A model generated the notes under the pieces. It was not told the origin of the DNA, did no database searches, and was given only the letters and a program-made list of their open reading frames with translations. Positions 873-63,111 of a stretch of DNA of 64,000 nt are shown piece by piece. Source of the stretch: Acidobacteriota bacterium (GTDB lineage: Bacteria; Zixibacteria; MSB-5A5; GN15; FEB-12); contig DATKXK010000014.1 of assembly GCA_035529075.1 (NCBI GenBank), positions 450,264 through 514,263 on the forward strand, read 5' to 3'. The stretch's first letter is position 1; every line of letters begins with the position of its first letter. Made by a program: the position numbers and the translations under genes.

Positions 873-931
873 GTATCTCGTGTCCCGGATGCGGACGGCT
901 TGCGCATGAGGAAGTGCAATGCGTAGATTAG
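869..931 (+). CDS. Possible 20-residue coupled mini-ORF with a CPGCG knuckle
   Basis: The ATG overlaps the lepB stop as ATGA, the usual form of translational coupling. The ORF encodes 20 residues with a CPGC knuckle near the N-terminus and a third Cys near the C-terminus, and stops at TAG 929-931. The Shine-Dalgarno (GAGGAAG, 908-914) and ATG of the next gene (919) lie inside it, so its translation could open or block that start. It may be a leader peptide, a tiny zinc-knuckle protein or a chance ORF. There is no homology evidence. Confidence 0.25.
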   Translation: MSISCPGCGRLAHEEVQCVD

Positions 932-1641
932 CCCTGACCTGTCTGAGCCTGCTCGCCCTGTCAAAGGCGGCGGCGGGCGGCCCCTCGGTGGAGGTTTCCC
1001 ACGACGAGTTCGATTTCGGTAAGACCGTCCAGCGTGCCGTCGTCACGCACGACTTCTGGATAAAGTCGACCGGGGATGATACGCTGATCATTACGAACGT
1101 CGTTCCCGGCTGCGGATGCACGAAATCCTGGGTGTCCGACAGCACTCTTGCTCCCGGAGACAGCACCAACCTGCACATCGTCTTTTCGACCGGCTATTTC
1201 CGCGGCCACGTTGCCAAGCGCCCGTATATAGAGACAAATGCCTCGGCTGACAAGGTCTACGTGAAAATCCACGCCGAACTCGAGGTCCAGCCGCAGAACG
1301 GCGGCGCCGTCGCGATCACCCCGCCGGTGGTGGACGTGTCTCAGTTCGATGAGCGACCTCGGCGCCGGGCGCGGTTCTTCATCGAAAATCGGAGCGACCG
1401 GAACCTCAACATCAGCGTGGCAGATTCGTCCTTCAAGAGCTTCAGCGTGAAAGTGCCGGACAAGGTCAAGGCGGGCGAATCGGTGGAAGCCCTGATCACT
1501 GTCTTCAAAGAGGCGGTTGCAACTGACTTCGAGGAGTCGTTGACGCTTGAATTCGACGACGCCCTGCAGTCACGCTTCACGGTTCCGATCAAGCGGCTGT
1601 ACCGCGCAGGCGATAAGAGCACCGCCACCGGCGGAAAGTGA
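919..1641 (+). CDS. DUF1573 domain protein (Cys form)
   Basis: An exported protein of 240 residues. A short hydrophobic signal segment (ALTCLSLLALSKAAAG) is followed by a DUF1573 Ig-like domain with the hallmark FDFGKTV...VVPGCGCTK, the two cysteines being residues 65 and 67. A second beta-rich domain ends in FTVPIKRLYR. The molecular role of DUF1573 is not established; the C-x-C suggests metal binding or thiol redox outside the cytoplasm. It aligns along its whole length with the protein at 61500-62240, which has UGA at the first of these cysteines. GAGGAAG at 908-914 supports the start. A terminator follows at 1672-1702. Confidence 0.85.
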   Translation: MRRLALTCLSLLALSKAAAGGPSVEVSHDEFDFGKTVQRAVVTHDFWIKSTGDDTLIITNVVPGCGCTKSWVSDSTLAPGDSTNLHIVFSTGYFRGHVAKRPYIETNASADKVYVKIHAELEVQPQNGGAVAITPPVVDVSQFDERPRRRARFFIENRSDRNLNISVADSSFKSFSVKVPDKVKAGESVEALITVFKEAVATDFEESLTLEFDDALQSRFTVPIKRLYRAGDKSTATGGK

Positions 1642-58541: not shown

Positions 58542-58644
58542 GAGCATACTCCGACCGGTGCTTTCGGGTTCTCCATCCCTTTTTCTGTTGCCTCACCAGC
58601 GCTGCCCCGGTAGATTGGGAAAAGCCGTTATCAAAGGTGACGCG

Positions 58645-59982
58645 ATGAGTACTCGTTTTTCAACAGCTTGGTTGTTGACGCTCCTCGTCTCGGTTGCGGT
58701 AGCCGTGTCGACTCAGGCGCAGGTCCTCCAGTGGGGCGTGGATCGGTTTCAGGACCAGCCCAACCTGTTTCTTGACTTCGCCCGCTTCAAATCTGATAAG
58801 CCCGACCAGATACGGCTGGAGGTGTACTATCAGGTGTACAATGCCGGCCTCCAGTTTGACCGGGATGGTGACACCTGGGCGGCGCACTATGAACTCGGAA
58901 TGACCATAAAGGACGACGACGGTCGTGTTGCGGCTGATTCCACCCGCAGGAAAGAGATACGGGTTACGGATCTGGCCCGAACCACGTCGAGCTACGACTA
59001 CCGGTCCAGCCAGTTCAATTTCGATCTGCCCGGCGGCAGGTACACCGTCTTCGCCAGGTTGAAGGACCTCGGCAGTGACAAAGTGGTGCACCACAAACTG
59101 GAGACCAAACTGGACGTATTCGACAGTAGCAAGCCGAGTATGTCCGACGTTGAGTTCACTCAGGCCGTCAGCGAAGTGACCGATTCCGGCGACGTCTTCC
59201 AAAAGGGCAACCTTCAGGTCGTGCCCGCGGTCACCAAGGCTTTCGGGGGCAGTGATGACAGCCGGCTGCTGTATTACGTCGAGATATACCGCGGTTCCGA
59301 CGAGGACGAGAAGATTCTGGTGGAGACAAAGTTGCGCCATGCGACCAAGGGATTGATCTACCGGGACACGCTGTATATAACCTTCACCGGTTCGGTAGAT
59401 AGACAGCTTCGCGAGATGTCGCTTGCGGAGTTCCCCCCGGGAGCGTACGAAATGGAAGTCTACCTGCGGGGAAGACGGAACAAGAAACTGGACTCTCAGC
59501 GGCGGGATTTCGAGGTCCTGTGGAGCCGCGATGCGCTGGTCAGGACTGATTGGGACAAGACGCTTGACCAACTGGGGTACGTCTCTGAGCCGGGCGAGCT
59601 TGACGAGTTCAGGAAACTGGAATCGATCGAGGAGCGAAAACAGGCCTTTGACGAGTTCTGGCGCCGCCGCGACCCCACCGTCGGGACGGCTGAGAACGAG
59701 GCTATGCGGGAGTTCTATCGACGGATCAGCGTGTCCAACCTGCGGTTCTCAATTTTGCGCCGCGAGGGCTGGCGGACCGACCGCGGGCTCATATACATCA
59801 GGTATGGCGAACCGGACGATATCGACGACGTGCCCTATGCCCCCAATACCGTTCCGTATCAGGTCTGGCACTACTACATGGCCGGCCGATACAAACGCTT
59901 CCTCTTTGTCGATGAGAACGAGGACGGTGACTACCGGCTGGAATACCCGTATGACGGCCTGTATCAAACCCCTGATTTCTAA
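58645..59982 (+). CDS. GWxTD-domain exported protein, first copy
   Basis: 445 residues from ATG 58645. A signal peptide (WLLTLLVSVAVAVSTQAQ) precedes two beta-rich domains and a C-terminal GWxTD domain (REGWRTDRGLIYIRYGEPDD). Proteins with this domain are common in FCB-group and related bacteria; their function is unknown. It follows the efflux cluster and overlaps the next gene. Confidence 0.85.
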   Translation: MSTRFSTAWLLTLLVSVAVAVSTQAQVLQWGVDRFQDQPNLFLDFARFKSDKPDQIRLEVYYQVYNAGLQFDRDGDTWAAHYELGMTIKDDDGRVAADSTRRKEIRVTDLARTTSSYDYRSSQFNFDLPGGRYTVFARLKDLGSDKVVHHKLETKLDVFDSSKPSMSDVEFTQAVSEVTDSGDVFQKGNLQVVPAVTKAFGGSDDSRLLYYVEIYRGSDEDEKILVETKLRHATKGLIYRDTLYITFTGSVDRQLREMSLAEFPPGAYEMEVYLRGRRNKKLDSQRRDFEVLWSRDALVRTDWDKTLDQLGYVSEPGELDEFRKLESIEERKQAFDEFWRRRDPTVGTAENEAMREFYRRISVSNLRFSILRREGWRTDRGLIYIRYGEPDDIDDVPYAPNTVPYQVWHYYMAGRYKRFLFVDENEDGDYRLEYPYDGLYQTPDF

Positions 59983-61417
59983 CCCGGCGGGTCCGCCGAG
60001 ACCGGTCGCCCGCCTGGCGATCATGGTCGCCGTCTCCCTTGTTTTGCTGGTCGGCACCGCATGGGCGCAGGGGGAGAGCCTGGACTTGGCCGTCTATACC
60101 AGGGCGACGGTCTACAATAACCCCGAGTACGATACGATGGTGCTGGTCGATTTCCCGTTTACGCTGAACCGGGACCAGTTCGAGTTCTACCAGCCGGATT
60201 CGCTGGACCCGGAATGGTATGCCCGGATATATGCACAGGTCACCTTGTTCGGACCAGACGGCCTGCTTCTTGATTCGGCCAGCACGTACTTCTCGGCCAG
60301 GACGTCGTCTGCACAGGAGGCCGCTGCCCCCGATTTCATGCTGTTCAACCGTTTGTCACTCCTGGTCCGTCCGGGCGTCTACTCCGGGCGGCTGGTCGTT
60401 ATCGACGTCGTCAGCAAACGTGAAGGCACGTTTTTTCTTGACCAGATTGTCGCTGAACCGGCGCGCCGGGACGAACTTACTATCGGGGGCGGCTCGCTGG
60501 CCTACCGGATCGGCAGGGCAGGTGAGGGGCAGACGTCGGATCCCATGGTTCTGAACGGTTTGCGGGTGCTGACCAACCCGCTGGGCGTGGTCGAGCTCGG
60601 CGACACCTCAGTGTACTTGTATGCCGAGTTGTACAATCTGACGTATGCCGCCGGTGATTCATCCGGCTATCGGCTTGAATACGCCGTGCTCGACAACACC
60701 GGGGCGGTATACCGAAGGCTGGGGCAGAAGGTACGCGTCAAGCCGGGGCCGTCGGCCGTCGTTGCCGAACAGTTTGACATTCGCGGGCTTCCGGCGGGAC
60801 GGTACCGGCTGCAGGTAGTGGCAACTGATCAGGCGGTGCTGGACGCGGATACGGCCCTTTTCAATCTCGCCATTCTGCCGGAGGCGTCGGAAGGGCTTGC
60901 ACTCGGCGAGGACGTCACCTTTGACCCGTATGATACGCTGTTGCTTGACGTGCGTGAGAAGCTTGTCGCCTACATCCTTACTTCTGATCAGAAGCTCGCG
61001 CTGTCACGGCTGACGCCTGAGGGGAGGAGTACGTTTCTCGACCAGTTCTGGCGTGATCGCGACGCCTCACCCGGCACCAGGTTGATCGAGAACCGCCTGG
61101 AAACGATCAAGCGCTTTGAGTTCTGCAACCAGTACTTCTCCACTGATGAGACCAGGTCCAACGGCTGGACGACCGATCGGGGCCGGATCTACATGACTTA
61201 CGGCCCCTGGGACGACAGGGATGACGTCTCGGCCCCACATGTCGGCAATCCGTTCGTCATCTGGTACTATTACTCCATTGGGGAAGGTGCCGTCTTCGTG
61301 TTTGAGGACAAGCGCGGGTACCACGACTACACCCTGGCGCACTCCAACGTCGATGGTGAGCGATACAGCGAGGAGTGGAAGGAGCGGTTGCAGCAGGGCG
61401 GGTATCGACTTGAATAG
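59951..61417 (+). CDS. GWxTD-domain exported protein, second copy
   Basis: 488 residues if started at ATG 59951, which overlaps the end of the first copy by 32 nt in another frame. The open frame extends far upstream only as a shadow of that gene. A signal peptide (LAIMVAVSLVLLVGTAWAQ) precedes beta domains and a C-terminal GWxTD domain (SNGWTTDRGRIYMTYGPWDD). ATG 60023 is an alternative start. The pair is probably co-translated. Function unknown. Confidence 0.82.
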   Translation: MTACIKPLISNPAGPPRPVARLAIMVAVSLVLLVGTAWAQGESLDLAVYTRATVYNNPEYDTMVLVDFPFTLNRDQFEFYQPDSLDPEWYARIYAQVTLFGPDGLLLDSASTYFSARTSSAQEAAAPDFMLFNRLSLLVRPGVYSGRLVVIDVVSKREGTFFLDQIVAEPARRDELTIGGGSLAYRIGRAGEGQTSDPMVLNGLRVLTNPLGVVELGDTSVYLYAELYNLTYAAGDSSGYRLEYAVLDNTGAVYRRLGQKVRVKPGPSAVVAEQFDIRGLPAGRYRLQVVATDQAVLDADTALFNLAILPEASEGLALGEDVTFDPYDTLLLDVREKLVAYILTSDQKLALSRLTPEGRSTFLDQFWRDRDASPGTRLIENRLETIKRFEFCNQYFSTDETRSNGWTTDRGRIYMTYGPWDDRDDVSAPHVGNPFVIWYYYSIGEGAVFVFEDKRGYHDYTLAHSNVDGERYSEEWKERLQQGGYRLE

Positions 61418-61442
61418 ATGTTTCCGTCGTCGGGTCAAGGCA

Positions 61443-61467
61443 AAAGGCCGCCCGGTGGGCGGCCTTT
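61443..61467. terminator. Bidirectional terminator hairpin
   Basis: AAAGGCCGCCC (61443-61453) and GGGCGGCCTTT (61457-61467) form an 11-bp stem with a three-base loop, between convergent genes. Short A and T runs at the ends serve both directions. Confidence 0.75.
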
Positions 61468-61499
61468 CTCTGTTGGCGTCAATTATATGGCGAAACCGT

Positions 61500-62240
61500 C
61501 TACGGCGACTCGGAGGCGGCGGCCGTGGATGACTGGCCGGGTATTCGCAGCTTTCTCTTGATCGGTATGGTGAAGCGGGACGCCGACTCATCATCCAGCT
61601 CAATCGTCACGGACTTGTCGAACGAAGTGTCAATGGCCTCCTTGCGCAGCTTGAGCACCCCCTGCGCAGTCTTGCCGGCCTTTACCGTCCCGGGCAGTTC
61701 CAGATCAAAGTACCCCTCCGGCTGATAGACAAGCCTGACTTTGAGGTCCTGCTCCGAGACGTTTGTTATGTTGAACTTCATCTCGTCCCTGACCTTTTCC
61801 CCAAACTGGGAAATATCCAGCTTGTAGGGTTTTATGATGATCGGGAATGTTGAATCAGGTCGCGCCAGCACGTCGGCGACAATCCGTACACGCTTGTGCG
61901 GCTCGCCCTCGTTCGTCTCGATGCTGGGGCTCTTGGTGATGCGGCTGCGGTACCGCTTGGTGCTGAATATGATCTCAAGGCGAGTGCTGTCACCGACAGC
62001 AAGCTCCGTCGCTTCCAACGGAGCCTTGGTGCACCCTCACCCGGGGACCACTTTCAGGATTTTCAGGCTGTCATCACCGACGGACTTGAGCCAGAACACG
62101 TGTGACACGGTCGAATTCTGCGGTACGAAGCCGAAGTTGAACTCGGGTTCTTCGATGAGAAGCCGCGGTGCACCGTAGCCCGAAGCCGCCATCACCAGCA
62201 GTCCCGCGGCCATTCCGCATAACAGAAGTCGTTTTTTCAT
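61500..62240 (-). CDS. DUF1573 protein with in-frame UGA: predicted selenoprotein
   Basis: Reading through one UGA (62039-62037) gives 246 residues. A signal peptide (RLLLCGMAAGLLVMAASGYG) precedes a DUF1573 domain with FNFGFVPQNSTVSHVFWLKS. The motif is VVPG-UGA-GCTK where the paralog at 919-1641 has VVPGCGCTK, so codon 68 stands in place of the first Cys and Cys70 remains. The 178 codons after the UGA stay open and match the paralog up to the shared FTIPIKR-like ending, so this is unlikely to be decay. A SECIS-like hairpin follows the UGA (62001-62026). The product would carry a U-x-C redox or metal motif outside the cytoplasm. Alternatives are a recent nonsense mutation or a sequence error. 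Confidence 0.78.
62001..62026 (-). promoter_or_regulatory. Bacterial SECIS-like element
   Basis: On the minus strand, GCTCCGT (62024-62018) and ACGGAGC (62009-62003) pair perfectly, extended by A-U and G-U pairs to 9 bp. The 8-nt apical loop UGGAAGCG has G as its second base. The loop begins 19 nt after the UGA. Published bacterial SECIS rules ask for a G in the first two loop bases and 16-37 nt from UGA to loop, and both are met. No folding program was run. Confidence 0.65.
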
Positions 62241-62280
62241 CTCTCTACCGTTACCCTGGGTGTTGCTACTGTTTTATACA

Positions 62281-63012
62281 CTATTTCTGATTAGTCGTCA
62301 CCAATGATTCTATCCTTGAGTTTCCGCCGGTGACGGGCAGCGTTATTCTCTGTTCCTCGCCTCCTTCACCGATAAACTCCAGCGTCACCGAACCGGTCAG
62401 GGCGGGGGACCAGTCCCTGGGGGCCAACCGGACGTTTACGCGTCGAGTCGAGCCGGCCGGAAGGGAATCCGGCAGTTCGACCGTAATCGGCACCCCGGGT
62501 CCTGATACCAGCGACACCGCGTAGTCTTCGTCCGACCGGTTTCTCAGCGCGGCGCTCCGTTCAAGCGTTCCCTGGGCCCCGGCGGTGTCAAAAACAATAC
62601 GGGGCGGCTGCACCGAGATTGCTTCCTCATCGTGCCCGTCGCCCGGGCCGCAGGTGGCGGTCAGGGTGACCCGGCGCGGGTCCGCTCCTGCACCGGTGAA
62701 CACCCAGGAAGTACGCCGGGACTCACCTTCGTCGTTTCGCAGATGCCAGTAAAAAGTCACGGCAAGACTGTCCCCGGGACGGACACTGGCTTGCGGTGGC
62801 ATCGCCGCCACACATCCGCAGCCGGTCTTTATCTCGCTGATCAGCAGCGTGTCGCTGCCCGTGGATCTAAACCAGAACTCATGGGCGACAACTGAATGCC
62901 GAGCGACGCTGCCGAAATCAAAATCAGGTTCATCTATCGCAAGCCTGGGCTGCCCGTGGAGATTCCCCCCGAGCATGACCAGTACTGTAATCGAAGCCGC
63001 TCTATATCTCAT
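62281..63012 (-). CDS. DUF1573-like exported protein (Cys form, divergent)
   Basis: 243 residues. A signal peptide (AASITVLVMLGGNLHGQ) precedes a DUF1573-like domain with FDFGSVARHSVVAHEFWFRS and IKTGCGCVAA, the cysteines being residues 65 and 67. The C-terminal half is a second Ig-like domain. It lies 40 nt upstream of the UGA-containing DUF1573 gene on the same strand, so the two are probably an operon. It is more divergent from the other two copies than they are from each other. Confidence 0.8.
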   Translation of the reverse strand: MRYRAASITVLVMLGGNLHGQPRLAIDEPDFDFGSVARHSVVAHEFWFRSTGSDTLLISEIKTGCGCVAAMPPQASVRPGDSLAVTFYWHLRNDEGESRRTSWVFTGAGADPRRVTLTATCGPGDGHDEEAISVQPPRIVFDTAGAQGTLERSAALRNRSDEDYAVSLVSGPGVPITVELPDSLPAGSTRRVNVRLAPRDWSPALTGSVTLEFIGEGGEEQRITLPVTGGNSRIESLVTTNQK

Positions 63013-63111
63013 TTACTTGCTTATATGACCAACACCTTCAGATTGTTCCGCTTCCCTGTAACTTATTCATATTGCCGGATTTCGTCAAGCCGTTTGCCCG
63101 TGATTTTAGAC

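Follow-up and report, generated by a model that had tools for sequence, protein, structure and literature searches.

A predicted selenocysteine codon in DUF1573 genes of Zixibacteria and a candidate two-hairpin SECIS element downstream of it

DUF1573 selenoproteins and the Zixibacterial gene

DUF1573 proteins (pfam07610) carrying the motif UGC are listed among the prokaryotic selenoproteins in reviews from 2022 and 2026 (PMC9312934, PMC13188914), with CAB1076174.1 and MDJ0815992.1 as listed examples, and these reviews credit the finding to Zhang & Gladyshev 2007, in a deltaproteobacterial symbiont of Olavius algarvensis. In addition, the NCBIfam model NF041425 (OS_HP2_seleno) exists. Thus, the DUF1573 selenoprotein family itself is already known, and the suggestion in the original prediction for this locus that the family might be new does not stand. 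For bacterial SECIS elements, the bSECIS model places the apical loop 16-37 nt from the UGA, although some elements do not fit (PMC13188914). The 2026 review further describes the change from Sec to Cys as rare in bacteria and documented mainly for FdhA and SelD (PMC13188914).

The gene described here lies in a 64,000-nucleotide stretch (the window) of a Candidatus Zixiibacteriota genome (3.04 Mb assembly, 21 contigs). It shares with the symbiont selenoprotein the Pfam domain and a Sec codon at the first CxC position, whereas the present Sec genes are Zixibacterial and are spread over many genera. All 42 of the aligned Zixibacterial Sec proteins match NF041425 at E <= 0.001, but the Sec protein of the window reaches 64.5 bits against a curated cut-off of 100, and the best of the 42 relatives (E 2.8e-25) should, as estimated from its E-value, fall below the cut-off as well. 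Since the Cys paralogues score 65.2 and 43.5 bits with the same model, the match of the Sec protein is only at the superfamily level, and its score below the cut-off sets the Zixibacterial Sec DUF1573 proteins apart as a separate subfamily. We found no relevant report linking Zixibacteria and selenoproteins in the literature searched. Within that literature, a lineage-wide Zixibacterial branch, a two-hairpin SECIS with its loop at 42 nt, and repeated Sec/Cys exchange are new. The relevant genes of the window are as follows:

58642-59979, plus strand: second GWxTD-domain protein (Pfam)
60023-61414, plus strand: GWxTD-domain protein, convergent neighbour of the Sec gene, with the same arrangement in L151
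61500-62240, minus strand: predicted Sec-containing DUF1573 gene, ATG start, TAG stop at 61502-61500, 246 aa, signal-like N-terminal helix, two Ig/ASH-like domains
62037-62039, minus strand: predicted Sec codon UGA, codon and residue 68, context PG-U-GCTK, retained Cys at residue 70
62281-63012, minus strand: Cys-type (CGC) DUF1573 paralogue adjoining the Sec gene upstream, a position kept in many relatives
919-1641, plus strand: Cys-type (CGC) DUF1573 paralogue, PGCGCTK at the UGA site, the comparator of the original prediction

Reading of the ORF at 62240-61500 (minus strand) confirmed that its sole internal stop is the TGA at 62039-62037, codon 68 of an otherwise intact gene. The encoded protein matches PF07610 at 70.2 bits (E 1.6e-19; Pfam gathering threshold 26.1 bits), with the match extending over both sides of the UGA; the protein encoded at 919-1641, likewise a DUF1573 protein (PF07610, E 3e-24), indeed has Cys at the UGA position. 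There are four DUF1573 loci in the genome, with an in-frame TGA only in the one under study. The single TGA is not a chance event: when 146 relatives were compared, most genomes of the same family and order also had as their top match a gene with one TGA, ~50-69% identical over the whole length. The originally claimed homology on both sides of the UGA is supported. We then took a census of the UGA column over all fetched loci, which comprised 173 distinct homologous genes from a search requiring a downstream Cys and Gly-Asp: 103 have TGA, 49 TGC, and 21 TGT, with no other codon and therefore neither TAA nor TAG. Further in-frame stops were absent from the examined UGA genes between 40 codons before and 150 codons after the site. 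Other stop codons or frameshifts in close relatives had been named as evidence against a Sec codon, and what the relatives carry is the same TGA. A column confined to TGA, TGC, and TGT is the pattern of Sec/Cys exchange rather than that of nonsense mutation. From UGA conservation, Cys/Sec exchange, RNA-level constraint, the decoding machinery, and the predicted fold, which form the computational basis of this work, we infer that UGA 68 is very probably decoded as Sec in place of the first Cys of the CxC motif, in agreement with the original prediction.

The candidate SECIS element

The region downstream of the UGA contains the following features:

61977-62039, minus strand: SECIS region spanned by covariance model R1, 63 nt long counting from the UGA, 76.6 bits, E 1.3e-18
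62001-62026, minus strand: probable proximal SECIS helix, AGGCUCCG...CGGAGCUU, partly covarying, alignment columns 14-39
61986-62000, minus strand: distal hairpin, GCUGUCGGUGACAGC (GCUGUC-GGU-GACAGC), nearly invariant, the proposed SelB-binding hairpin

With the T of the UGA counted as column 1, columns 40-54 read GCTGTCGG(T/C/A/G)GACAGC, a 6-bp stem with a GGN triloop that occurs as GGT, GGC, GGA, or GGG. All six pairs are formed in 97/103 Sec genes vs 3/70 Cys genes, and the residues encoded by this stretch are AVGDS in the Sec genes and mostly APGDS in the Cys genes. The codons GCT, GTC, and GAC account for 99-100% of the rows with the respective residue at +13 (Ala), +14 (Val), and +16 (Asp), compared with 14, 29, and 40% at other places in the stretch, while Ser at +17 is encoded by AGC in 95% vs 24% elsewhere. 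Ala +5 (GCT, 62% vs 14%) and Leu +12 (CTT, 73% vs 13%) are also biased. Synonymous variation is nearly abolished only at the hairpin stretch and is at or near background on both sides of it, and the exact hairpin 15-mer occurs a single time in the genome. The check for a SECIS proposed along with the Sec codon therefore had a positive outcome: an element is present 3' of the UGA, is constrained at the RNA level, and is nearly absent from Cys genes. The covariance model R1, trained on 76 Sec genes, likewise has its best genome match at the Sec gene site, at 76.6 bits, with the next match (20.7 bits) being the Cys paralogue near 919; the model also finds the element in class-level relatives, mostly outside its training set. 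A search of 61300-63100 against Rfam returned no match.

The second component of the element is the proximal helix. Across the set of 76 genes, 81% of the cells of this helix are paired and two pairs change on both sides; in one covarying pair, a silent Ala position is joined to the second base of a Glu/Val/Ala codon. Taken together, the two helices have a covariation score of 0.139, compared with 0.076 (sd 0.006) when shuffled (0/500) and 0.029-0.057 when slid. Over all 103 Sec genes, pairing of the proximal helix amounts to 77% vs 42% in Cys genes, and in the window's own fold it forms an 11-bp stem. RNAalifold by itself did not return the proximal helix, and on alignment A2 it gave an alternative, non-covarying pairing at columns 4-20 beside the distal hairpin. 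The covariation counts, the contrast between Sec and Cys genes, and the shifted controls all favour the proximal helix, and on these grounds we retained it over this pairing, but since RNAalifold alone does not recover it, we rate it only as the probable, weaker half of a two-hairpin SECIS. An outer pairing enclosing the UGA, present in the window's own fold, was absent from the alignment folds and is not claimed.

Like a canonical bSECIS, this element lies in frame within the coding region 3' of the UGA and has a 6-bp stem capped by a small apical GGN loop. It differs in that the conserved loop is found at 42 nt, counted over alignment columns 4-45, beyond the 16-37 nt of the bSECIS spacing criterion, with another helix in between. 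As the DUF1573 SECIS thereby breaks the spacing rule for bacterial SECIS prediction, rule-based tools may miss or misplace it. In our favoured reading, the in-frame element within 51 nt after the UGA would direct Sec insertion through two parts, a proximal helix with partial covariation and a distal GGN hairpin that hardly varies, with SelB most likely binding the latter and the proximal helix shortening the effective distance between the UGA and the hairpin. We think it somewhat more likely than not that the Zixibacteria have a distinct SECIS class for DUF1573, in which a near-invariant SelB-binding GCUGUC-GGN-GACAGC 42 nt from the UGA is combined with a proximal helix as a folding spacer, and that repeated Sec/Cys switching after tandem duplication has left fossil SECIS behind. 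The roles could also be reversed, with the proximal helix as the SECIS proper and the distal hairpin as an accessory, such as a pause signal or an mRNA regulatory site. The proximal loop at 18 nt does fit the published bSECIS range (PMC13188914), and the covariation at two pairs and the 11-bp stem in the window's fold are in keeping with such a role; however, this loop has no conserved G, the pairs of the proximal helix are broken in about a quarter of the cells, and it is the distal GGN hairpin that is nearly invariant, which makes the reversed assignment unlikely.

Two departures from the common distal hairpin were encountered. L227 (G072:C7:43900-45000, motif ~443) is a PGUGC gene with a UGA but without the distal hairpin (CTTCCCGGCGATAGC), and its residues are LPGDS as in Cys genes; it represents a UGA gene that lacks this SECIS, a mutation from Cys to stop, or an error in the sequence. 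Four distant-family Sec genes (L206, the first gene of L209, L215, and L216) have GCTGCCGGTGACAGC (AAGDS) in common, which turns one hairpin pair into C-A. This pair may be tolerated by the hairpin, or SelB may differ there.

Decoding machinery and other readings of the UGA

A search for the Sec machinery, which had been suggested as a check, found selA, selB, selC, and selD all present in the host genome, with selA, selB, and selC lying on the window's own contig. In the host assembly, selA (501 bits), selB (313 bits, matched over positions 1-578 of the 581 in its profile), and selD (377 bits) all score above their curated cut-offs, as does selC, the tRNA-Sec (68.6 bits), which ARAGORN likewise reports as tRNA-SeC with anticodon tca. 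SelA, SelB, tRNA-Sec, and SelD would thus be the factors that decode UGA 68 as Sec. Among the relative genomes, 124/146 have selA. Five genomes with UGA genes (G002, G035, G060, G074, and G075) had no selA match at E 1e-30, but since a tRNA-Sec scores above cut-off in three of them and all five are at most 93% complete, these absences are likely assembly gaps. In one relative, a selA match (G042:C64:9741-11075) was reported with one TGA inside. In-frame UGA codons are common in selD genes, and the host selD (L017, G000:C11:170304-171230) is itself a selenoprotein gene, with an in-frame UGA in SCAG-U-ASK. Its hairpin loop lies 20 nt past the UGA, which is the canonical spacing, unlike that of the DUF1573 SECIS.

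We also considered whether UGA 68 might be a functional stop or might be read as Trp, Cys, or another ordinary residue. Nothing specific speaks for such a reading, while the complete Sec machinery of the genome, the Cys present at this column in every counted non-UGA homologue, the ordinary use of UGA as the end codon of several relatives' genes, and the almost complete restriction of the hairpin to UGA genes all argue against it, and we regard it as very improbable. That the TGA is a sequencing or assembly error, or marks a nonsense-mutation pseudogene, has a negligible chance of being correct: the genome is a draft in 21 contigs and draft assemblies do have single-base errors, but 103 distinct genes, taken from genomes assembled independently, share the TGA at this column and lack TAA, TAG, or other stops, which is decisive and makes a read error implausible, and there is selection on the RNA element linked to the TGA.

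Sec/Cys exchange, predicted fold, and gene neighbourhood

Sec and Cys genes are interleaved on two trees, with a minimum of 17-24 label changes, of which 11-14 are forced by well-supported branches; both are quick trees of unknown root, from which the direction of change cannot be read. In single cases, the direction is readable from the state of the RNA element. L075 and L219 have TGC with an intact hairpin, while L211 has TGC together with a decaying hairpin (GCCGTCGGCGACAGC). L056 (G072:C50:16800-19200) consists of tandem copies with 92% DNA identity, TGA in one and TGC in the other, and the TGC copy (its second gene) has an almost unchanged SECIS, its six stem pairs all kept and its loop GGA. 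The best reading of these two copies is a recent change from Sec to Cys that followed the duplication. Judged by their sequences, several Cys genes thus contain a "fossil" SECIS, which bears on the view that bacteria rarely replace Sec by Cys. Sec genes with matching Cys genes, often adjacent in one genome, also make the costs and benefits of Sec testable within a single family. It should be noted that two clusters, L208 (G084:C100) and L209 (G105:C194), each include three tandem Sec-type DUF1573 genes, every one of which has its own UGA and hairpin. L154 (CP070824.1, 3422140-3430781) is a Sec DUF1573 paralogue with PPUGC for PGUGC and a longer N-terminus.

AlphaFold2, run with 42 aligned sequences and with residue 68 modelled as Cys, predicted a structure (pLDDT 93.8) consisting of an N-terminal hydrophobic helix, likely a signal peptide, followed by two Ig-like domains. 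In this model, the UGC motif sits in the first Ig/ASH-like domain, on a loop that connects strands 59-65 and 85-93. The best structural matches of this domain include 7n6g_4C (Z 13.7, rmsd 1.9 over 100 residues) and VesB 4lk4 (Z 12.6, rmsd 1.8 over 96 residues), and the predicted fold is that of the ASH/PapD-like Ig domains of HYDIN, CEP192, the VesB C-terminal domain, and P. gingivalis 2qsv. The resemblance is one of fold only and carries no function, and a PDB sequence search with the family profile gave no match. The product is predicted to be exported, which would expose Sec-Gly-Cys on a loop in the envelope, where it might act by selenenylsulphide redox chemistry or as a soft-metal ligand. 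We would give roughly even chances to Sec-Gly-Cys being an envelope thiol/selenol redox centre, with metal binding in the envelope as the alternative role. As DUF1573 has no assigned function, the occurrence of Sec at the CxC motif throughout a bacterial lineage points to redox or soft-metal chemistry there.

Of the other Zixibacteria contigs examined, most again show convergent genes of matching size 3' of the Sec gene. Pfam was applied to two genomes, those of the window and of L151, and identified the convergent genes as a pair of GWxTD-domain genes in each; both also have a Cys DUF1573 gene upstream. In L151, a MacB/FtsX permease adjoins the GWxTD-domain pair. The neighbours (GWxTD, MacB/FtsX, and Cys DUF1573) point to no substrate. 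Nevertheless, two adjacent GWxTD genes (58642-61414 in the window) are convergent to the Sec gene here and likewise in L151, and there may be a link between GWxTD and DUF1573 proteins.
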